This document shows, piece by piece, positions 3,803 to 26,112 of a stretch of 52,332 bases of DNA (positions are counted from its first letter, which is position 1; each line of letters opens with the position of its first letter). The notes under the pieces are model-generated. The model ran no database searches. It was not told the origin of the DNA and was given only the letters and a program-made list of their open reading frames with translations. Both the position numbers and the translations under genes were made by a program. The stretch is from Acidocella sp. Its GTDB lineage: Bacteria; Pseudomonadota; Alphaproteobacteria; Acetobacterales; Acetobacteraceae. Location: the NCBI RefSeq assembly GCF_028687955.1, contig NZ_JAQTZC010000005.1, positions 1-52,332 on the forward strand, in the 5' to 3' direction.

Positions 3803-4669
3803 TCAGGTCAGCACCGGGTCCAGGTCCACATTCACCCGCAGCGCGTGCCGCCCGCCGCCGAGGATGATGCCGCGCAGCGGGCTGACATCCTGAAAATTAC
3901 GGCCCCAGGCGAGCGTTACGTGTTCATCGCTGACCAGCAGATTATTGGTGGGGTCAAAATCGACCCAGCCGATTTCCGGCCCAAGCCAGGCGGAGACCCA
4001 GGCGTGGGACTGATCCGCCCCGCGGCGCTTGGTTTGCCCGGCCGGAGGCGAGGTGCGCAGATAGCCCGAGACGTAGCGCCCTGGCAGGCCCAGTGAGCGC
4101 AGGCAGGTCAGCATGAAATGCGCATAGTCCTGGCAGACGCCGGCGCGGGTTTTGAAGACATGTGCAGCCGTGGTGGAATTGTTGGTCACACCTGGGGTGT
4201 AGGTCATGTCCGTCCAGATGCGCAGGTTCAGCTCCAGCAGGCCGGCCAGGATGGTGCGGCCGGGGGGAAAGCTGAGGGCGGTGTAGTCAGCGATTTCCCC
4301 ATTGGGTTTGGTCAGCGCGCTGGGCAGGCAGAATTCGGCGACATCCGGGTCTTTAAGACCCCATAGCGCGATGGCCTCCCATCGCGGCGTTTGCGCGGGC
4401 GGCGGCGGGGGAGGCTGTTCCACATCGATGGTGGCGCTGAGCGCCACGGAGAACTGCCGGTGCAGGGCGGTGAGTGAAACGGTGGTGGTGATGTTGCCGA
4501 AATGGTCGGTCTCGTCGCGCCTTGTTTCCGGTTGCGGGGAGACGCTGAGCATAGCCTCACGGATGAACTGGCCGGGCCGCGCGCGCGGCAGCAGGTGCAT
4601 GAAATGCGTGCCGAGGACGACTGGCTCCGCATAGTCGTAAGTGGTGGTGTGGTGCAGCCGGTAGATCAT
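3803..4669 (-). CDS. Transglutaminase-like cysteine peptidase family protein
   Basis: MIYRLHHTTTYDYAEPVVLGTHFMHLLPR N-domain; GVCQDYAHFMLTCLRSLGLPGRYVSGYL (Cys), SHAWVSAWLGPEIGWVDFDPTNN (His/Asp). Confidence 0.93.
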   Translation of the reverse strand: MIYRLHHTTTYDYAEPVVLGTHFMHLLPRARPGQFIREAMLSVSPQPETRRDETDHFGNITTTVSLTALHRQFSVALSATIDVEQPPPPPPAQTPRWEAIALWGLKDPDVAEFCLPSALTKPNGEIADYTALSFPPGRTILAGLLELNLRIWTDMTYTPGVTNNSTTAAHVFKTRAGVCQDYAHFMLTCLRSLGLPGRYVSGYLRTSPPAGQTKRRGADQSHAWVSAWLGPEIGWVDFDPTNNLLVSDEHVTLAWGRNFQDVSPLRGIILGGGRHALRVNVDLDPVLT

Positions 4670-6876
4670 TGCGCGGCTTCGAGCTCCAACTCGTCCTCGA
4701 GCTGGTGGGCCTCTGGCAGCAGGCTGAAGAAGCGACGGTGCACATGGTCGGAGATCAGCCGCAGGCGGGCGGCAATGGCGGCCAGCGGCTTGGCTAGGCC
4801 GATGGTCTCACCGCTAAGGTTTGCCGCCTCCTGCTGCAACAGTTTCAGGGATTCGGCGTCGTCCTCGGCGCCCAGATGTTGCAGGCAGCTACGCAACACG
4901 ATGAATTGATAAGCCAAGCTGCGCGGGTTGCCGGAATCGGCCAGCAGCATGGAGAGCACGGGGGCGGGCGCCAGAATGCCCGCGTGGCGCAAATCATAAC
5001 TAAGCACGGAATCAGCCAGCTCGATGCCGAGCGCCATGCCGGGTTCCAGCCGCTCGGGCGAGGCGTTAAGCAAAATGGCGAGGTTTTCGGCCAGGGTTTC
5101 GGCGCGCTCCAGCCTGCGGCCCATCTCCAGGAACAGCCAGCCGCCGTCGCGCGACATGTTCTCCGCCGCAATGCCCGCGAAAGTGGCGGCGAAACTGAGC
5201 ATGGCGGGCAGGGCCAGTTCCTCGTTGGGCAGGGATTCGGTGGCCTGGTTCAGGGCGAAGCGCACAGTGGCCAGCATGCTCGGGCTCAAGCGCTCGCTGG
5301 CGGCGTTGACCAGCCGGGCGACTTCCTGGAGCTGCCCGGTAATTGGCTTGCGCCGCGCCAACGCGCCGCGTAGCTGGCGGCCCGAGAGCGCGCCACCCGC
5401 GAGGTCAGCCGGGAGCAGCCCGGCCTGGGCGAGACATTTGGCGATCAGCCCGCGCTCGGCCAGATCACGCGGCAGCGAAGTGCCGGATTCCAGCCGGGGC
5501 AGCGCCAGCATCAGCAGGCGCGAGGCGGATTCCAGCCTCTCGACCGAGCGGCCGAGCCAGAACAGATTATCAGCCACGCGCGAGGGCAGATGCGCGGCGG
5601 CGAGGAACTGGGTGCGCTTGGGAACATCCGAATGGGTGGCGCCGGAAATGATGTGCGGCTCATCGGCATCCAGCACCCAGAGGTCCTTCATGCCGGCGAG
5701 GGTGATGCCCTGTGCCGCGTTCGTCTGCTCTAGGCCGAAACCGAGGCCGCCGGGAAGGACCTGCCAGGTGTTGCCGTTGTGCCATGCGTAAAGCCGAAAA
5801 AGGATGGGGGTGGAAACCAGATTGGTGCCGCTGACGAAAGGGGCGCGGGACGCGTTTGCCACCGGGTCGCCGGAGGCTTTCGCCAGTAGCGGGGCGGCGC
5901 CGAGCAGGCGTTGGAACAATGGTTCAATATATACCGCAATTTCAGCCGCTTCCATCAATGCGCTGCCGGGTGCGTTGAACATTTTCAGTGCCCCGGCGCG
6001 GATGGCGCCAAAGGCGCCGGGGATACCGGCGCCCGGCCGCCCGCCTTGCTCCAGCGGGTCCAGATCAATTCCCGGGAGCCCGCGGACGAGGCTGGCGACG
6101 GGCAGCAGGCCGCTCAGGGTTTTCATGTGCAGGCCGCCGTTGCGGGTGGCGAGGTCACCGGGTTCAATCAGCAGCACGCCGAGTGCGCGCGCGAGCAGGG
6201 CATCGTCCATCGCATCGGGCGCCAGGGCTGGGTTGGCGGCCCCGGCCGAAAGCACGGCGACCAGCCCGCCCTGGGCCGCGCGTTGCAGATGGTCCACCAG
6301 CATCTCGCGCACCGGGCGCAGGCTGCGCAGCCCCCCGGCGCGGAAAAGCTCAGGCACAGTGCCGGAGGCGATGCGCCGCAGCGACAGCGCATGGCCAAGA
6401 CCGGGGATGACGCCGGTATGGTCGCGCAGGACCTGGAAATGCCCGTCCGGCCCGCGGATGAGATCAGCCGCGTAGAGACTGAGGCGCGGGAAGTTGAGCG
6501 GGGTTTGCGTGTGCAGGCTGCGCAGGAAATGCGGGTTGCCCAGTACCAGCGCGGGCGGGAGGCTGCCGTCGCGCAGCAAGGTTTGCGGGCCGTAGAGGTC
6601 TTGCAGCGCGGCGCTGAGCAGTTGCGAGCGTTGCAGCAGCCCTGCCTCAAGCCCGGAGAATTCAAATGGGGTGAGCAGTGCGGGCAACGGGTCGTAATGG
6701 CGGGTTGGCGCGGCGCCGAAGGGGGCGGCAAGGCGCATCTGCCGGTTCAGCGCGGCGGCGCGGCGGGCCAGCTCCTCGTGCCCTACATCGCGCACGGCCT
6801 CGAGCAGTGGCGCCCAGTGGCCACGTATCCGGCCGGACCGGTCGATCATTTCATCGCAGGAAGCCACTGCACTCAT
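4666..6876 (-). CDS. Circularly permuted ATP-grasp-like domain fused to alpha-E domain; ATP-grasp half divergent
   Basis: N-half LLQRSQLLSAALQDLYGPQTLLRDGSLPPALVLGNPHFLR and YAADLIRGPDGHFQVLRD; C-half LPSRVADNLFWLGRSVERLESASRLL alpha-E signature. 4-bp overlap with the transglutaminase gene. Confidence 0.88.
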   Translation of the reverse strand: MSAVASCDEMIDRSGRIRGHWAPLLEAVRDVGHEELARRAAALNRQMRLAAPFGAAPTRHYDPLPALLTPFEFSGLEAGLLQRSQLLSAALQDLYGPQTLLRDGSLPPALVLGNPHFLRSLHTQTPLNFPRLSLYAADLIRGPDGHFQVLRDHTGVIPGLGHALSLRRIASGTVPELFRAGGLRSLRPVREMLVDHLQRAAQGGLVAVLSAGAANPALAPDAMDDALLARALGVLLIEPGDLATRNGGLHMKTLSGLLPVASLVRGLPGIDLDPLEQGGRPGAGIPGAFGAIRAGALKMFNAPGSALMEAAEIAVYIEPLFQRLLGAAPLLAKASGDPVANASRAPFVSGTNLVSTPILFRLYAWHNGNTWQVLPGGLGFGLEQTNAAQGITLAGMKDLWVLDADEPHIISGATHSDVPKRTQFLAAAHLPSRVADNLFWLGRSVERLESASRLLMLALPRLESGTSLPRDLAERGLIAKCLAQAGLLPADLAGGALSGRQLRGALARRKPITGQLQEVARLVNAASERLSPSMLATVRFALNQATESLPNEELALPAMLSFAATFAGIAAENMSRDGGWLFLEMGRRLERAETLAENLAILLNASPERLEPGMALGIELADSVLSYDLRHAGILAPAPVLSMLLADSGNPRSLAYQFIVLRSCLQHLGAEDDAESLKLLQQEAANLSGETIGLAKPLAAIAARLRLISDHVHRRFFSLLPEAHQLEDELELEAAQ

Positions 6877-7208
6877 TCATCCTGGTTAACAGACTGATTG
6901 CCCGCGGGCTATGGCCAATCAGGTTGCGCCGCAACATGAGCGGCGCGGGCATATGGTTCGTCAGCCGGTGGAGCCGGCTGGTCCGCGGTTTGCATGGCAC
7001 CCGGTGGGGGCTTGCGGGAATACCGATTTTGGATGCAGCCTGTCAGGGACCATAGTGAGAAGGTACTGTTGGATGGTTGGCAACTGATGAATTCCTTCGC
7101 GGTTATTTTTGCTTTGGCGCGAATTTGCGCAGTTTTTGACCATGACCTGACCGTTCCGGCGCCAGCCCCGCAGGCTGGCCTGGACAATTTCCGATCGGAG
7201 CCGCTGGT

Positions 7209-8684
7209 ATGAACGAAATCTTTCGCACCATCTGGCCGGAGTACGATCCGGGCCGCTATTTTTGTGAACTCACGCGCAAACGGGCCGATGCCGGCCCGGT
7301 GCCGGACTGGCTGATCCAGCGACTCGGGAGCATCGGGCTGGAGGCGTTGCGCGCGCGCGCCTCGGCCGCGGAGACCGATCTGATCGACCTCGGCGTGACC
7401 TTCACCGTGTATTCGGATGCCACCGCGATCGACCGGATTTTACCGTTTGACTGTATTCCGCGCGTGCTCACGGCGGCGGAATGGAGCCTGCTGGAGCGGG
7501 CGTGCATCCAGCGGGTAGCGGCGCTGAATGCGTTTCTGGGCGATATCTACGGGCCGGGGCATATCGTGCGCGATGGGGTGATCCCCGCTGAGCTGGTCTA
7601 TGGAAATTCCAACTACCGGCCGGAGATGAAGGATTTTCCAGTGCCGCACGGGACGTATGTGCATGTCTGCGGCATCGACATCATCCGCGAAGAATTCGGC
7701 GATTTCCGCGTGCTAGAGGATAATGCGCGCACGCCCTCCGGGGTGAGCTATGTGATTGAGAACCGGCACCTGATGCTGCGCGCTTTCCCCGATTTGATGG
7801 CGGGGATACGGTTGAAGCCGGTGGATGATTACGGGCGCAGGCTGCGCGCGGCGATGAGCGAGATCGCGCCGGGCGGGGCGGATGATCCGCAGGTCGTGCT
7901 GCTCTCGCCGGGCATTTATAACTCCGCTTATTTCGAACATGTGTTCCTGGCGCGCGAAATGGGCGTGCCGCTGGTGGTCGGCGCGGATCTGGTGGTGGAG
8001 GATGAGCGCGTCTACATGCGCACAACCAGCGGGTTGCGACGGGTGCATACGATCTACCGGCGTTTGAACGATGATTTTCTGGACCCGGCGGTGTTCCGGC
8101 CGGATTCCATGCTGGGCGTGCGCGGGTTGATCGGCGCGTGGAAGGCCGGGAATGTCGCGATCGCCAATGCAGTAGGCACCGGCGTTGCCGATGACAAGGC
8201 GGTGTATGCCTACATGCCGCGCATCATCCAATATTACCTCGGGCAGGAGGCGCTGGTGAAAAATGTGGAGACCTATATCTGCCGCGAGCCGGAGGGGCTG
8301 CAATATACGCTGGAGAATCTGCACAAGCTCGTGACCAAGCCGGTGGGCGAGTCCGGCGGGTATGGCATCACCATCGGGCCGCGCGCCAGCAAGAAGGAGC
8401 TGGAGGCGGCGCGGGCCGCCATTTTGGCCGATCCGGGCAACTGGATCAGCCAGCCGATGATCGGGCTTTCCGTCGCGCCGACGCTGGCGGCCGAGGGGGT
8501 CGGGCCGCGGCATCTGGACTTGCGGCCGTTCATCATCACCGGCCGGGAGAGCTGGGTGCTGCCCGGCGGGCTGACCCGCGTGGCGATGAAGCGCGGCAGT
8601 TTGATTGTGAACTCCAGCCAGGGCGGCGGCTCCAAGGACACCTGGGTTCTGGCGGATAATTTTGCCGAAGGGGGCGGAAAATGA
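7209..8684 (+). CDS. Circularly permuted type 2 ATP-grasp protein, stand-alone
   Basis: VHTIYRRLNDDFLDPAVFRPDSMLGVRGLIGAWKAGNVAIANAVGTGVADDKAVYAYMPRIIQYYLG, KLVTKPVGESGGYGITIGP, SWVLPGGLTRVA; full set of family motifs. Confidence 0.94.
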   Translation: MNEIFRTIWPEYDPGRYFCELTRKRADAGPVPDWLIQRLGSIGLEALRARASAAETDLIDLGVTFTVYSDATAIDRILPFDCIPRVLTAAEWSLLERACIQRVAALNAFLGDIYGPGHIVRDGVIPAELVYGNSNYRPEMKDFPVPHGTYVHVCGIDIIREEFGDFRVLEDNARTPSGVSYVIENRHLMLRAFPDLMAGIRLKPVDDYGRRLRAAMSEIAPGGADDPQVVLLSPGIYNSAYFEHVFLAREMGVPLVVGADLVVEDERVYMRTTSGLRRVHTIYRRLNDDFLDPAVFRPDSMLGVRGLIGAWKAGNVAIANAVGTGVADDKAVYAYMPRIIQYYLGQEALVKNVETYICREPEGLQYTLENLHKLVTKPVGESGGYGITIGPRASKKELEAARAAILADPGNWISQPMIGLSVAPTLAAEGVGPRHLDLRPFIITGRESWVLPGGLTRVAMKRGSLIVNSSQGGGSKDTWVLADNFAEGGGK

Positions 8685-9727
8685 GCGCGATGCGTTTTGA
8701 TGCCGTGCTGCTCTCGCGCGATGCCGAGGGGTTGTTCTGGATGGCGCGCTACCTGGAGCGGGTGGAAAATCTGGCGCGGCTGATCGACGTGACGCAGAGT
8801 TTCGAGAGTCCGGGATTTGAGACGGATGCCTGGTTCGGGCTGATCCGCATCAACGCGGATGAGAAGAATTTCGCGGCGCGCGGCTTCTCGCCGGATGCGG
8901 CGCATGTGAAGCGGTTCTATCTGCTGGACCGCGGCAACCCCACCTCCGTACCGGGCAATCTGGAGGACGCACGCACCAACGCGCGCACGCTGCGCCCGCT
9001 CATGAGTACGGAGATGTGGCGCCAGATCAATATGTTCCACCGCTTTGTGGGGCAGATTACGCCCGAGGACCTGGAAGGCGATGCGCTCTCGCGGCTGTGC
9101 ACCAGGCTGAAGGACGGCGTGCAGGCGCATACCGGTATCACCGAGGGGACGCTGTACCGCGACCAGGGATGGTATTTTTATGAGCTGGGCCGGTTGCTGG
9201 AGCGCGCCGACCAGACCACGCGCATGCTCGATATTAAATACACCGCGATCTTGCCGCAGGGGCACGAGGAAAAGCGCGTGGCCGAGATGACGCAGTGGAA
9301 CGCGATTTTACGCGCCGCCGCCGGGTATCATGCCTTCAAGCGCCGCTCGCGCGCCAGCTTTTCGGCGGAGGATGTGGTGCATTTCCTGCTGCGCGACCCC
9401 TCCTCACCGCGCTCGGCGCTGCTGTGCATGCGCAGGGCGGAGCTGCATCTGGACGATTTGCGGCGGATCTACGGGCTGTCAGCCGCGGCCGAGGCGATTG
9501 AGATGGCGCAATATTTGCGCGAATTGCTGCTGGAGAAGCCAATCAGCCATATTCTTGCCACGGGGCTGCACGAGTATCTGGATATGGTCCAGATCCATAT
9601 TCAGGCGCTCGCGGGCGCCGTCGGCCGTGCGTTTTTCCGCGACTGGCAACCGGCTGACCCGCTGGCGGCGGCCGCGCAAGGCCAGGTACAGAACCAGACA
9701 CAGGGACCGGCGGAGGCGCTTGCGTGA
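8681..9727 (+). CDS. Alpha-E domain-containing protein
   Basis: LLSRDAEGLFWMARYLERVENLARLIDVTQSF; overlaps the ATP-grasp stop (ATGA). Canonical partner of the ATP-grasp protein. Confidence 0.93.
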   Translation: MSAMRFDAVLLSRDAEGLFWMARYLERVENLARLIDVTQSFESPGFETDAWFGLIRINADEKNFAARGFSPDAAHVKRFYLLDRGNPTSVPGNLEDARTNARTLRPLMSTEMWRQINMFHRFVGQITPEDLEGDALSRLCTRLKDGVQAHTGITEGTLYRDQGWYFYELGRLLERADQTTRMLDIKYTAILPQGHEEKRVAEMTQWNAILRAAAGYHAFKRRSRASFSAEDVVHFLLRDPSSPRSALLCMRRAELHLDDLRRIYGLSAAAEAIEMAQYLRELLLEKPISHILATGLHEYLDMVQIHIQALAGAVGRAFFRDWQPADPLAAAAQGQVQNQTQGPAEALA

Positions 9728-11247
9728 ACAGACTGCGTGCGTTGTGTTGGCCGGTATTGGTGTTCGTGCTGGCGCTGCTGCCCCGGCTGAGCGGCCTGGG
9801 CGCCAGGCCGTTCTGGCTTGACGAGGCATTCACCTTCCAGCGCGCCTCGCTGGCGCCGGCGGCGCTGGTGAACGATTCCTTCCTCAACCACCATATGCCG
9901 AGCTTCTTCCTCATGCTCTCGCCGCTGGTGGGGCTGGGCGACCCGCAATATTGGCTGCGCTTGCCCTCGGCGGTGTTCGGCGCGCTGGCGGTGATGCTGG
10001 TGTATATGATCGCCTACCGGGTCGCCGGGCGCACCGCGGGGGTTATCGCGGCGCTCATCATCGGCCTCTCGCCCACGGCGCTGGCCTTCAGCCAGGAGGC
10101 GCGCTCCTATACGCTGGAGATGTTTCTGATTCTGGTCGCGCTCTATGGAATCACGCGGCTGGCCATGGATATTTCCGCCGCCTCAAAGCCGATCCGCTGG
10201 AATGTGACGGGGGCTCGCTGGGCGGTATTCATACTGGGCTCGGCGGTGGCGCTGGATGTGCTGGGCGACGGGCTGCCCTGGTTGATTGTTGCCAATGTCA
10301 TCGGTGCGGCGCTGCTCGTACAATCCCCGGACCGCTGGCAGCTGCTGCGCAATTTTCTGCTCTTCGATTTCATCGTCGCGCTATTGTGCGGGCCGTTCTA
10401 CTACCTGATGACGTTGCACCAGGGACAGGGCTACATCCGAAGCATGACGTGGATTCCACCGCTGAACGCCTCGCGGCTTTGGTATGATCTTGGCTCGGTC
10501 TACTTCATGCGGATCGCTGATTCGGTGACCTTCAAGTTCATGCATGTGCCCACCCCCCACGTGCTGGTTTGGGTAATTGACGCAGCCCTGGCCCTGGGCG
10601 TGGCCAGTGCCGCTTGGGCGCTGCGCCGCCGCCCCGCGGTGCTCGTGGTGCTGGGCATCTCGTTTTTGTTTCTACCGTTGATGTTCACGATCATTTCGAT
10701 CTGGCGGCCAATTCTGCTGCCCCGCTATATCCTATGGAGTGCCGCGCCCTTCGCGATCCTCGCCGGAATTGGCGGCGCGGCGCTGCTTGACCTTGCCGCG
10801 CCGCGCGCGCGCGTGATGGTGGTGGCGGGCGGGGTGCTGCTGCTGCTCGTGAACCTCGTGCCCTACTACAATGTCGAGACCAAACCGCGTTGGGATATCG
10901 CCGCGAAATTGTTGGCGCAGGATGTCAGCCCGGGGGATGTGGTGTATCTCTACGATACCGGGGCGTTGCCGATTTTGCGCATGTATCTGCCGCCGGGCGC
11001 GCGCAGTGTGGTGCTGAAGGATGCCGCGGGAAGCTTGAACCATGCCGAAAAGGCCGCGAGCCAGGGTAAGCGCGTGTGGGTGGTGTATGGCCACGCGGGG
11101 CAGAGCGCGGAGCATGCGGCGTTCTCCAAGTTTTTCGCCGGCGCGCAGGCGCTTGGCAAACCCAGCCTGACGCAGGTGGCGGGCAGCCGGATTATGATCG
11201 CGCTTTATGACCCGGCAAACCAGAATGGGGCCGGCACTGCTGAATGA
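9724..11247 (+). CDS. ArnT/PMT-like (GT39-type) integral membrane glycosyltransferase
   Basis: PFWLDEAFTFQRASL, SPTALAFSQEARSYTLEMFLILVALYG and multiple TM segments; GTG start overlapping the alpha-E stop. Confidence 0.85.
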   Translation: MNRLRALCWPVLVFVLALLPRLSGLGARPFWLDEAFTFQRASLAPAALVNDSFLNHHMPSFFLMLSPLVGLGDPQYWLRLPSAVFGALAVMLVYMIAYRVAGRTAGVIAALIIGLSPTALAFSQEARSYTLEMFLILVALYGITRLAMDISAASKPIRWNVTGARWAVFILGSAVALDVLGDGLPWLIVANVIGAALLVQSPDRWQLLRNFLLFDFIVALLCGPFYYLMTLHQGQGYIRSMTWIPPLNASRLWYDLGSVYFMRIADSVTFKFMHVPTPHVLVWVIDAALALGVASAAWALRRRPAVLVVLGISFLFLPLMFTIISIWRPILLPRYILWSAAPFAILAGIGGAALLDLAAPRARVMVVAGGVLLLLVNLVPYYNVETKPRWDIAAKLLAQDVSPGDVVYLYDTGALPILRMYLPPGARSVVLKDAAGSLNHAEKAASQGKRVWVVYGHAGQSAEHAAFSKFFAGAQALGKPSLTQVAGSRIMIALYDPANQNGAGTAE

Positions 11248-15870: not shown

Positions 15871-17298
15871 ATGGTTCTGGGGATATTGGCGGCCGGCGCC
15901 GCAGCGGGGCTGGCGGTGGTGTATTGGCGCGACACGCACCAGCAAAAGCACACGGTGCTGCGTAATTTTCCCGTTATCGGGCATTTCCGCTATTTCGCCG
16001 AGACCTGGGGCGAATATATGCGCCAGTACCAGTATCTGCCGGACTGGGCGGAGCGGCCGTTCAACCGGCTGGAGCGCAGCTGGGTGTACCGTTCGGCGAA
16101 AGGGGTTTCCAATCTGGTGAGCTTCGGCTCGGAGAATGTGCCGAGCTTTGTGTTCCGCAATGCCGCGTTTCCCGTGCTCGATGAGGAGAAGCGGCATTTT
16201 CCCGGTAAGCTGATCGGCATCGCCAACGGCCCAGGGGCGTGCGCGCAGCCTTACATGGGGCAGAATTTTTTTAACATCTCGGGCATGAGCTATGGCGCGC
16301 TGAGCCATGCGGCGGTGAGCGCGCTCTCGCGCGGGGCAAAGCTCGCGGGCGTGTGGATGAGCACCGGCGAGGGCGGACTCTCTAAATTCCATCTGGAGGG
16401 CGGGGCGGATATCATCATGCAGATCGGCACCGCCAAATATGGTGTGCGCGATGCCAACGGCGCGCTTTCAGAGGCGCGGCTGCGCGAGATCGCGGCGATG
16501 CCGCAGGTGAAGATGTTCGAGGTGAAACTGGCTCAGGGCGCCAAGCCGGGCAAGGGTGGCGTGTTGCCAGGCGGCAAGGTGACAGCGGAAATCGCCGCCA
16601 TTCGCGGCATTCCCGAAGGGCATGACAGCATCTCTCCCAACCGCCACCGTGATATCGGCAATATCGCAGAGCTGGGCGCCTTCATCGCCCGGGTGCGAGG
16701 GATCACCGGCAAGCCGGTGGGGGTTAAGTTCGTTGTCGGCGATCCGCGCTTCCTTGATGAATGGTTCAGCGACTGTGTGGAGAACCCAGAGCATTGCCCT
16801 GATTATATCCAGGTGGACGGCGGCGAGGGCGGCACCGGCGCGGCGCCGGAGCCGCTGGCTGACTATATGGGGCTGCCGATCACCCAGGCGCTGCCCTATG
16901 CGGTGGCGTTGCGCGATGAACATGGGCTGACCGGGCGGATACGCATCATCGCGGCGGGTAAATTGATAACGCCGGACAAGGTGGCCTGGGCGCTGTGCAT
17001 GGGGGCGGATTTCGTTTCCTCCGCGCGGGGCTTCATGTTTTCGCTCGGGTGCATCCAGGCGATGAAATGCGGCTCCGGGCGCTGCCCCACGGGGGTGACC
17101 GCCGCCGACCCGCGGTTGATCGCGGGGCTGGACCCGGCGGACAAGGCGGTGCGGGTAAGCCGCTATGCGGGGCGGCTGATGGATGAGGTGGAGATGATCG
17201 CGCATTCCTGCGGGCTGACGGACGCCAGCGGCTTGCGGCCGCGCCATGTCACCGAGATCGAGCGCGGTGTGGGCGGTTTCAGGGCGCATGCGGGATGA
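15871..17298 (+). CDS. FMN-binding glutamate synthase family protein with N-terminal TM segment
   Basis: NISGMSYGALSHAAVSALSRGAKLAG, WMSTGEGGLSKFHLEGGADIIMQIGTAKYGVRD, YIQVDGGEGGTGAAPEPLADYMGLPI, CPTGVTAADP. Confidence 0.93.
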   Translation: MVLGILAAGAAAGLAVVYWRDTHQQKHTVLRNFPVIGHFRYFAETWGEYMRQYQYLPDWAERPFNRLERSWVYRSAKGVSNLVSFGSENVPSFVFRNAAFPVLDEEKRHFPGKLIGIANGPGACAQPYMGQNFFNISGMSYGALSHAAVSALSRGAKLAGVWMSTGEGGLSKFHLEGGADIIMQIGTAKYGVRDANGALSEARLREIAAMPQVKMFEVKLAQGAKPGKGGVLPGGKVTAEIAAIRGIPEGHDSISPNRHRDIGNIAELGAFIARVRGITGKPVGVKFVVGDPRFLDEWFSDCVENPEHCPDYIQVDGGEGGTGAAPEPLADYMGLPITQALPYAVALRDEHGLTGRIRIIAAGKLITPDKVAWALCMGADFVSSARGFMFSLGCIQAMKCGSGRCPTGVTAADPRLIAGLDPADKAVRVSRYAGRLMDEVEMIAHSCGLTDASGLRPRHVTEIERGVGGFRAHAG

Positions 17299-22791: not shown

Positions 22792-25700
22792 ATGTCCGTT
22801 CATGCCGCGATTACACATCGTACATCCTACAAATATGACCGCCCCGTGGCCCTGGGCCCGCAGACGATCCGCCTGCGTCCCGCCCCGCATGCGCGCACGC
22901 CGATCCTCTCATACGCCCTGAAAGTCTCGCCGCAGCCGCATTTTCTTAACTGGCAGCAGGACCCGCAAGGCAATTTCATGGCCCGGGTGGTGTTCCCCGA
23001 GCGGGTGACGAGTTTTGAGGTGGTGGTGGATTTGGTGGCCGACATGGCGACCATCAACCCGTTCGATTTTTTCCTGGAGCCGGAAGCGGAGACGTATCCG
23101 TTTAAGTACGATGAAATTCTCGCCGAGGAGCTGGCGCCGTTCCGCGTGCTGCGCAATCCGGGCAAAAAACTCCAGGCGCTCATCGGCGCGGTCCACGCCG
23201 AACATGGCAACAAAGAGCTGCGCATGGTGGACATGCTGGTGCTCATCAACCGGATGATTGCCGAGCGCATCTCCTATGTGGTGCGCATGGAGCCTGGCGT
23301 TTGGAGCCCCGAGCAGACCTTGACCAAAGCGAAAGGCTCCTGCCGGGATTCCGCCTGGCTGCTGGTGAATCTACTGCGCCACCTGGGCTTCGCGGCGCGG
23401 TTTGTTTCGGGCTATCTCATCCAGCTGACCGCCGATGTGAAGCCGGTTGATGGCGGCGCCGAGGGCCCCACCGCCGACTTCACCGATCTGCACGCCTGGG
23501 CGGAGGTGTATCTGCCGGGAGCGGGGTGGATCGGGCTGGATGCGACCTCGGGGCTGATGGCAGGCGAGGGGCATATCCCGCTGGCCGCCACACCCTCGCC
23601 AAGCTCGGCCGCGGCGATTTCGGGGCTGGTGGGCGCGTGCGAAACGGAATTTGAGTTCGACATGAAGGTGACCCGCGTGGCCGAGACGCCACGCGTGACC
23701 AAGCCTTACACCCCGCGCGTGTGGCAGGATATTCTGGCCCAAGGCCAGGCGGTGGATGCGGCATTGGCGCGCGGCGATGTGCGCCTCACCATGGGCGGCG
23801 AGCCGACATTTGTGGCTGCCTCCGATTTTGAGGCGCCGGAGTGGAATATCGATGCTTTGGGGCCAACCAAGCGCCAATTCGCCGGACGGCTGATCCGCAA
23901 GCTCACCCCGCTGTGGAGTAAGGGCGCGGCGCTCACCTATAACATGGGCAAGCATTATCCGGGCGAGCAGCTGCCACGCTGGGCGATTCATGCGCATTGG
24001 CGCGCGGATGGCGAGCCGGTGTGGAAAAACCCGGCACTGCTGGCCAGCGATGATGACAAGGACGACGCGGCGGCGGCGGATGCGGCGGCCTTTACCACCG
24101 CGCTGGCTGAGCGGTTGCAGGTGAACCCGGCGCTGGTGAACCAGGCGTATGAGGATATCCATTATTATCTGTGGCGCGAGAAGCGACTGCCCGCGAATGT
24201 GGTGGCCATGGAGTCCAGGCTGGGCGACGAGCTGGAACGCGCGCGGCTGGCGAAGGTGTTCGGCCAGGGGTTGGCGGCACCCGTGGGCAGCGTGCTGCCG
24301 CTGCGCCGGGTGGTCATGGCGGGTGAGCGCGCCTGGCAGAGCGGCAAATGGTTTTTCCGCGATGATGTGATGTTCCTGATCCCCGGTGATTCGCCCGTGG
24401 GGCTGCGCCTGCCGCTGGAGAGTCTGCCCTGGGCGGACCCGGCGCATAGGGAGGTTGAGTTCGAGACCGACCCGTTCGCCCCGCGCAAGAAATTGCCCAA
24501 ACGTGACTCCATGCAGCTGACGCGCGAGGGTTATGGCGGCAGCGGCATCGAGGGGTTCCGCCCCGTGCCGCAAGATGCGCCGGTGGTGGGGCGCGAGGAG
24601 CCGGGGCTGGTGCGCACCGCGCTGGCGGTGGAGGCGCGCGATGGGATTTTGCATGTTTTTTACCCGCCGCTTTACGATGTGAGCGACTGGCTGGAGCTGA
24701 CCGCCGCGGTGGAGGAAACCGCCGCCGCCATGGGCCGCAAGGTGGTGCTGGAAGGCTACCTGCCGCCCGAGGATGATCGGGTGATCAATTTTTCCGTCAC
24801 ACCGGACCCTGGCGTAATCGAGACGAATATTCACCCCGCCGCCAACTGGGGTGAGATCGTGGAGCGTACCGAACAGCTCTATGAGGTGGCGCGCGAAGTG
24901 GGGCTGATGACCGAAAAGTTCATGCTCGATGGCAGGCATGTCGGCACCGGGGGTGGCAACCATGTGGTGATGGGCGGCGCCACGCCCGCTGACAGCCCGT
25001 TTCTGCGTAGGCCGGATCTGCTGAAATCCATGCTGGGATTCTGGCATAACCACCCGAGCTTAAGCTTTTTGTTCAGCGGGTTGTTCATAGGGCCTTCGAG
25101 CCAGCATCCGCGCATCGACGAGGCGCGTGAAGACTCGCTGAACGAGCTGGAGATCGCGTTTCAGCAGGTGAGCAGCGCAACTTATACCCCGCCCTGGCTG
25201 GTGGACCGGCTGTTTCGCAACATTCTCGCGGATATGACCGGCAACGGCCATCGCACGGAATTTTGCATCGACAAGATGTATGCCCCCAATGGCGGCTCCG
25301 GGCGGCGCGGGCTGGTGGAATTCCGCGCCTTTGAGATGCCGCCGCACGCGCAGATGTCAGCCGCGCAGGTGTTGCTGATGCGCTCGGCCATCGCCGCATT
25401 CTGGAACAAACCTTATGAGCGGCGGCTGGTTCGCTGGGGCACGCGGCTGCATGATGAATTTCTGCTGCCGCATTACGCCGAGGCCGATTTCAAGGATGCG
25501 CTGGCCGAGCTTGAGGCTTTAGGGTTCGGGCTGGACCCGCAATGGTTTGCGCCGCATCTGGAATTCCGTTTCCCGCAGGTGGGCGAGATCGCGCTGCGTG
25601 ACATGCGCGTGGAGCTGCGCCACGCGCTGGAGCCGTGGCATGTTCTGGGCGAGGAACAAACCTCCGGTGGCACCGCGCGCTATGTTGATAGCTCCGCCGA

Positions 25701-26112
25701 GCGGTTGCAGGCGAAGGTCTCCGGCTGGGTGGATGAGCGTTACGCCCTGGCCTGCAACGGTGCCGCGCTGCCGTTGCAAAAAACCGAAGTGCCGGGTGAA
25801 TATGTGGCCGGTGTGCGCTTCAAGGCCTGGCAGCCTTATTCGGCGCTGCACCCCACCATCCCGGCGCAGGTGCCGCTGGTGTTTGATGTGTACGATAAAT
25901 GGTCCGGCCGCAGCATTGGCGGCATGAGCCATCATGTCGCGCATCCGGGCGGGCGGGCCTATGATGATTTCCCCGTGAACGCGAATGCGGCGGAAGCACG
26001 GCGGCGCTCGCGCTTCTTCCCCTTTGGCCATACGCCAGGGCCGATGCTCGCGCCGCGCGAGGTGCGCGCGGTTGAGTATCCGCGCACGCTGGATCTGCGC
26101 CGCAATGCTTAA
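22792..26112 (+). CDS. Transglutaminase-like plus DUF2126 (COOH-NH2 ligase/amidoligase fold) protein
   Basis: 1106 aa; GSCRDSAWLLVNLLRHLGFAARFVSGYL and DLHAWAEVYLPGAGWIGLDAT, then LTMGGEPTFV, GNHVVMGGATPADSPFLRRPDLLKSMLGFWHNHPSLSFLFSGLFIGPSSQHPRIDEAR typical of DUF2126. Confidence 0.93.
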   Translation: MSVHAAITHRTSYKYDRPVALGPQTIRLRPAPHARTPILSYALKVSPQPHFLNWQQDPQGNFMARVVFPERVTSFEVVVDLVADMATINPFDFFLEPEAETYPFKYDEILAEELAPFRVLRNPGKKLQALIGAVHAEHGNKELRMVDMLVLINRMIAERISYVVRMEPGVWSPEQTLTKAKGSCRDSAWLLVNLLRHLGFAARFVSGYLIQLTADVKPVDGGAEGPTADFTDLHAWAEVYLPGAGWIGLDATSGLMAGEGHIPLAATPSPSSAAAISGLVGACETEFEFDMKVTRVAETPRVTKPYTPRVWQDILAQGQAVDAALARGDVRLTMGGEPTFVAASDFEAPEWNIDALGPTKRQFAGRLIRKLTPLWSKGAALTYNMGKHYPGEQLPRWAIHAHWRADGEPVWKNPALLASDDDKDDAAAADAAAFTTALAERLQVNPALVNQAYEDIHYYLWREKRLPANVVAMESRLGDELERARLAKVFGQGLAAPVGSVLPLRRVVMAGERAWQSGKWFFRDDVMFLIPGDSPVGLRLPLESLPWADPAHREVEFETDPFAPRKKLPKRDSMQLTREGYGGSGIEGFRPVPQDAPVVGREEPGLVRTALAVEARDGILHVFYPPLYDVSDWLELTAAVEETAAAMGRKVVLEGYLPPEDDRVINFSVTPDPGVIETNIHPAANWGEIVERTEQLYEVAREVGLMTEKFMLDGRHVGTGGGNHVVMGGATPADSPFLRRPDLLKSMLGFWHNHPSLSFLFSGLFIGPSSQHPRIDEAREDSLNELEIAFQQVSSATYTPPWLVDRLFRNILADMTGNGHRTEFCIDKMYAPNGGSGRRGLVEFRAFEMPPHAQMSAAQVLLMRSAIAAFWNKPYERRLVRWGTRLHDEFLLPHYAEADFKDALAELEALGFGLDPQWFAPHLEFRFPQVGEIALRDMRVELRHALEPWHVLGEEQTSGGTARYVDSSAERLQAKVSGWVDERYALACNGAALPLQKTEVPGEYVAGVRFKAWQPYSALHPTIPAQVPLVFDVYDKWSGRSIGGMSHHVAHPGGRAYDDFPVNANAAEARRRSRFFPFGHTPGPMLAPREVRAVEYPRTLDLRRNA

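Follow-up and report, generated by a model that had tools for sequence, protein, structure and literature searches.

A predicted ATP-grasp pseudoenzyme fused to Alpha-E, with repeated loss of the ATP lid, in Acidocella and its relatives

Introduction

In 2009, Iyer et al. reportedly described a predicted amidoligase or peptide-tagging system that brings together a circularly permuted (CP) ATP-grasp, a GS-like ligase, Alpha-E, a transglutaminase and Anbu. The Alpha-E-fused copy of the ATP-grasp may already be called inactive there; if so, what is new here is the repeated loss of the ATP lid and the quantification. Otherwise, the additions are a quantified split between dead and live proteins, the repeated lid loss and an association with DUF2126. 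In the passages of later papers that relay the 2009 work, the components and a predicted role in peptide synthesis or tagging are credited to Iyer et al. (PMC5666114, PMC6376114, PMC3597751). The ATP-grasp of the Yersinia bercovieri Anbu operon liberates phosphate from ATP, and when the proteins of the Yersinia Anbu operon were co-expressed, Anbu as bait pulled none of them down specifically (PMC6376114). Our literature search found no paper on an inactive ATP-grasp of this type or on DUF2126, no biochemistry of any fused member and no substrate of the system. The Pseudomonas rlo system, which pairs an ATP-grasp with an inactive transglutaminase, was set aside, as no Alpha-E is mentioned.

How does the Acidocella locus compare? 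The window, which is the whole stretch of 52,332 nucleotides analysed here (contig NZ_JAQTZC010000005.1), holds the linked CP-ATP-grasp, Alpha-E, transglutaminase and GS-like (DUF2126) ligase genes of the Iyer system within 3.8-26.1 kb, that is, everything but Anbu: no Anbu NTN-hydrolase was found in this 93%-complete genome, where the sole proteasome-fold match is an HslV-like ORF of 189 aa. Unlike that system, the window has an extra ATP-grasp which is predicted to be dead and is also truncated. The neighbourhood is laid out as follows:

3803 to 4669, minus strand: transglutaminase-like protein, overlapping the fused gene by 4 nt; Cys-His-Asp triad by inspection
4666 to 6876, minus strand: predicted pseudo CP-ATP-grasp fused to Alpha-E, 736 aa, a single uninterrupted ORF; Pfam CP_ATPgrasp_2 partial, Alpha-E complete
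6877 to 7208: intergenic region separating two divergent gene sets
7209 to 8684, plus strand: live stand-alone CP-ATP-grasp, with all catalytic positions intact in the alignment; CP_ATPgrasp_2 positions 1-374 (Pfam)
8681 to 9727, plus strand: stand-alone Alpha-E (Pfam), overlapping the live ATP-grasp by 4 nt
22792 to 26112, plus strand: transglutaminase-DUF2126 (TG-DUF2126) putative amidoligase, found directly upstream of the fusion in many relatives

The Yersinia ATP-grasp is of the same kind as the live 7209-8684 protein, and its release of phosphate from ATP thus supports activity of the live type; unlike the window's fused protein, it is separate and catalytically competent.

Loss of catalytic residues in the fused protein

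The original prediction concerned positions 5100 to 6876, which span the ATP-grasp half and part of the Alpha-E half of the fused gene; the motif strings that it quoted are all present in the translations, and the frame is intact, as it had stated. The features of the fused gene are these:

5665 to 6876, minus strand: predicted pseudo-ATP-grasp domain, about aa 1-404
6418 to 6426, minus strand: R151-D152-H153, replacing E170-D-N172 of the live protein
5871 to 5872, minus strand: deletion junction, about aa 335/336, placed approximately; live residues 355-413 are gone in the alignment of 114 fused and 67 stand-alone proteins
5800 to 5802, minus strand: L359, replacing live D437 (of DLRPF)
4726 to 5589, minus strand: Alpha-E domain, with GRxxER, GRRLER and PRS motifs intact in the motif alignment

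By sequence, the protein belongs to both families: it scores 220.4 bits for CP_ATPgrasp_2 (PF14403; curated cut-off 32), with aa 65-334 matching positions 1-270 of 374 only, and 146.7 bits for Alpha-E (PF04168), with aa 430-717 matching the profile from 1 to 294 of 294, a full-length helical domain whose ER motifs align. The ATP-binding segment had been described as missing, and so it is, although by eye it was put at 75-100 residues and the alignment gives 59, equivalent to live residues 355-413. This stretch holds the ATP-binding lysine (K377) and the glycine-rich SGGYG loop of the live protein; the KPxxxSGGYG signature of an active CP-ATP-grasp has thus been deleted. The other signature residues fare no better: in live numbering, E170, N172, R174, D437 and N468 have each been substituted or lost, EDN reading RDH, DLRPF reading LFRLY and NSSQGGG being gone. 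By analogy with ATP-grasp enzymes in general and glutathione synthetase, these residues would serve in Mg and ATP binding. A Pfam search for an intact ATP site elsewhere in the 736-aa protein found none. The ATP-grasp half of the fused protein is predicted, from the residues that it lacks, to be catalytically dead.

Predicted inactivity across the fusion family

Did the deletion inactivate the enzyme? The alignment sample comprised 67 stand-alone proteins and 114 fused ones, both short and full-length, drawn from within the window's own family, class and phylum; about a third of the fused proteins are from close Acidocella relatives, and 92 fused and 30 live representatives are left at 80% identity. 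E170, N172, R174, K377, Q415 and N468 occur in 67/67 stand-alone proteins and D437 in 66/67, with E in the remaining one; among the fused proteins, E170, N172, D437 and N468 occur in 0/114 and K377 in 7/114. In most fused proteins outside the Acidocella clade the segment is near full length (commonly 146-152 residues versus 147 in live proteins), so these would have died with the lid still present. Since the same catalytic residues are gone from fused relatives of full length, the missing segment is not the cause of inactivity: the family appears to have been a pseudoenzyme already, and the segment was deleted later.

The pattern extends to plasmid-borne fused proteins of Granulicella (Acidobacteriota), Tsukamurella (Actinomycetota), Enterobacter, Sinorhizobium and Burkholderia, which are without the E, N and D positions; stand-alone proteins of Enterobacter and Hymenobacter have them intact. 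Phyla beyond Pseudomonadota were sampled through plasmid records. In the tree, the fused proteins form one clade separate from the live ones (support 0.938). Judged by these residues, the ATP-grasp is predicted to be dead throughout the sampled fusion family and not in this one protein alone. The annotation of the family, "circularly permuted type 2 ATP-grasp protein", gives the impression of a working ligase; because the ATP-grasp half looks dead in every copy examined, experiments on ligase activity that used the fusion would target the wrong protein.

A separate observation concerns the single stand-alone protein in which D437 has become E. This 485-aa copy (L175, from genome G346) also has an altered glycine loop (SGPRNM) and is possibly heading toward inactivity.

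Repeated loss of the ATP lid

The lid segment has been deleted at least three times. It is fully lost in the Acidocella clade (together with genomes G023 and G096), in G089 and in G142, and partly lost in G043 and G051; on a tree from which the lid columns were left out, the trait requires three changes. A single origin is ruled out: forcing the lidless proteins, a group defined after an earlier tree had been seen, into one clade is rejected by the AU test (p = 1.5e-6). With 1.14 changes per column, the Acidocella clade has a long stem, which points to fast evolution there. The short form is common to about 30 genomes of Acidocella or near relatives and to two verrucomicrobial genomes and is therefore not an assembly error.

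The two verrucomicrobial copies, from Verrucomicrobia bacterium LP2A (L055) and Methylacidimicrobium tartarophylax (L056), are lidless fused genes with 65-67% identity to that of Acidocella. L055, whose fused gene lies on a 1.3 Mb contig, is nested within the Acidocella clade with starred support in the lid-free tree, and the earlier tree nests both; this placement suggests horizontal transfer between acidophiles.

Selection and fold

If the enzyme is dead, is the gene decaying? In pairwise comparisons with the five nearest relatives, Nei-Gojobori dN/dS comes to 0.07-0.19 in the dead half, as compared to 0.08-0.11 for the live ATP-grasp and about 0.09-0.10 for the fused Alpha-E half. The dead half thus combines the two marks of a pseudoenzyme, being a homologue without catalytic residues that is kept under purifying selection; taken together, the dN/dS values and the short form common to about 30 genomes rule out gene decay or an assembly artefact. 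A first AF2 model, of the whole fused protein, was too weak for use (pLDDT 57.5). The N-terminal 435 residues, modelled with live homologues in the input alignment, gave pLDDT 81.9 and pTM 0.85, with 3N6X as the top PDB match (TM 0.76/0.74); as the live homologues aid the model, the result speaks for compatibility with the 3N6X fold and is not proof of it. Compared to stand-alone CP_ATPgrasp_2 proteins (PF14403; 3N6X, Methylobacillus flagellatus), the window's protein shares the fold in the model and keeps 39/43 positions at which live and long fused proteins are both conserved, but it is without the catalytic positions and the 59 ATP-lid residues and bears Alpha-E. The original reading of the fused gene as a retained pseudoenzyme that is not decaying is well supported by the absence of E170, N172, D437 and N468 from every fused protein sampled, by purifying selection and by the model.

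Role of the fused protein

Why would a dead ligase be kept? Probably, we think, as a pseudoenzyme subunit, non-catalytic, which carries Alpha-E in a predicted amide-ligase system with a partner that we infer. The circularly permuted glutathione-synthetase-type ATP-grasp domain would no longer bind Mg-ATP or form acyl phosphate and would survive as a folded platform covalently attached to Alpha-E; its most likely role would be to present Alpha-E, perhaps with a substrate, to the TG-DUF2126 amidoligase and the live ATP-grasp. As to its origin, an adjacent ATP-grasp/Alpha-E gene pair may have been duplicated and then fused, with catalysis lost before the sampled lineages split; the lid segment, freed from ATP binding, would have disappeared on three or more later occasions, one of them in the ancestor that Acidocella shares with its near relatives.

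The choice of partner draws on co-occurrence in 100 Acetobacteraceae genomes, tallied by hand from result tables: the fusion is present in 57, a live stand-alone copy in 79 and a DUF2126 protein in 62. The fusion and DUF2126 are found together in 54 genomes and both missing from 35 (phi 0.78, Fisher p 8e-16, shared ancestry ignored); the exceptions, three with the fusion only and eight with DUF2126 only, count against the subunit reading, as does the negative pull-down with the related Yersinia proteins. Gene order is also informative. TG-DUF2126, fused gene, TG is a common arrangement in long-form genomes, and an Enterobacter plasmid carries live ATP-grasp, Alpha-E, TG-DUF2126, fused gene and TG within 9.2 kb; in Acidocella, the fusion instead adjoins the live pair.

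A special case, which overlaps the subunit reading and was raised in the original prediction, is that the fusion regulates the live paralogue as a heterodimer. The live ATP-grasp is present in 55 of the 57 fusion-bearing genomes, and in Acidocella the two genes are adjacent and divergent, while in several other lineages they lie near each other. However, this association (phi 0.49, shared ancestry ignored) is weaker than that with DUF2126, the live gene is often present without the fusion (24 genomes, against two with the fusion only and 19 with neither), and genome G031, listed as 100% complete, combines the dead fusion with DUF2126 in the absence of a live copy, making it a natural test of the need for the live paralogue. 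A regulatory heterodimer is thus a possibility to be taken seriously, though we would not expect it.

Could Alpha-E be the only working part, with the dead ATP-grasp kept as a passive tether for its folding or solubility? The Alpha-E motifs are fully intact, the lid was repeatedly lost while the gene was kept, and the 90 residues past the junction (aa 335-424) evolve faster, with dN/dS of 0.14-0.54 over all pairs. What makes the proposal unlikely is that stand-alone Alpha-E proteins occur without a fused ATP-grasp and that the dead half, besides its low dN/dS, has fused-specific residues of its own: E276 in 34/34 members of the Acidocella clade and E309 in 30/34. Such residues might instead mark a new function, the dead domain binding or converting a new ligand; several reach 90% conservation or more among long fused proteins and hardly occur in live ones. 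But the most conserved of them, the Trp that aligns with live position 357, is absent from the shortened form together with several more. No one new site is therefore shared by all fused proteins, and we regard neofunctionalisation as decidedly improbable. That the fusion is still an active ligase with an unusual site can be dismissed: the R of DLRPF is present in 114/114 fused proteins and the overall fold remains in the model, but the ATP-binding Lys, the glycine-rich loop and the conserved acidic and Asn positions are all missing from the window's protein.

The subunit reading invites a broader one, which we offer tentatively and on which we would not rely: all bacterial ATP-grasp/Alpha-E fusions might belong, as a dead subunit of ancient origin, to a two-ligase machine for amide formation, with the DUF2126 ligase doing part of the chemistry and convergent lid loss marking full conversion to a scaffold. 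A predicted dead subunit that persists in at least three phyla, and whose lid was repeatedly and convergently deleted, offers a concrete handle on what such a subunit binds, and its lid-bearing and lidless versions can be compared.

Other features of the neighbourhood

Two reports touch on nitrogen: nitrogen limitation upregulates Anbu in Pseudomonas putida (PMC5666114), and related genes are NtrC-dependent in Burkholderia cenocepacia (PMC5491218). Because of the latter, a sigma-54 site was sought in the divergent intergenic region; one site with one mismatch (6979-6994) was found and rejected, as the count in the whole window is that of chance (14 found, 14.4 expected). A glutamate-synthase-domain protein (15871-17298, plus strand) is encoded between TG-DUF2126 and the locus of the live ATP-grasp and is a possible link to nitrogen metabolism. 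Directly after the live ATP-grasp/Alpha-E pair comes a membrane glycosyltransferase-like gene (9724-11247, plus strand; PMT_2, a weak match), which keeps this position throughout Acidocella.
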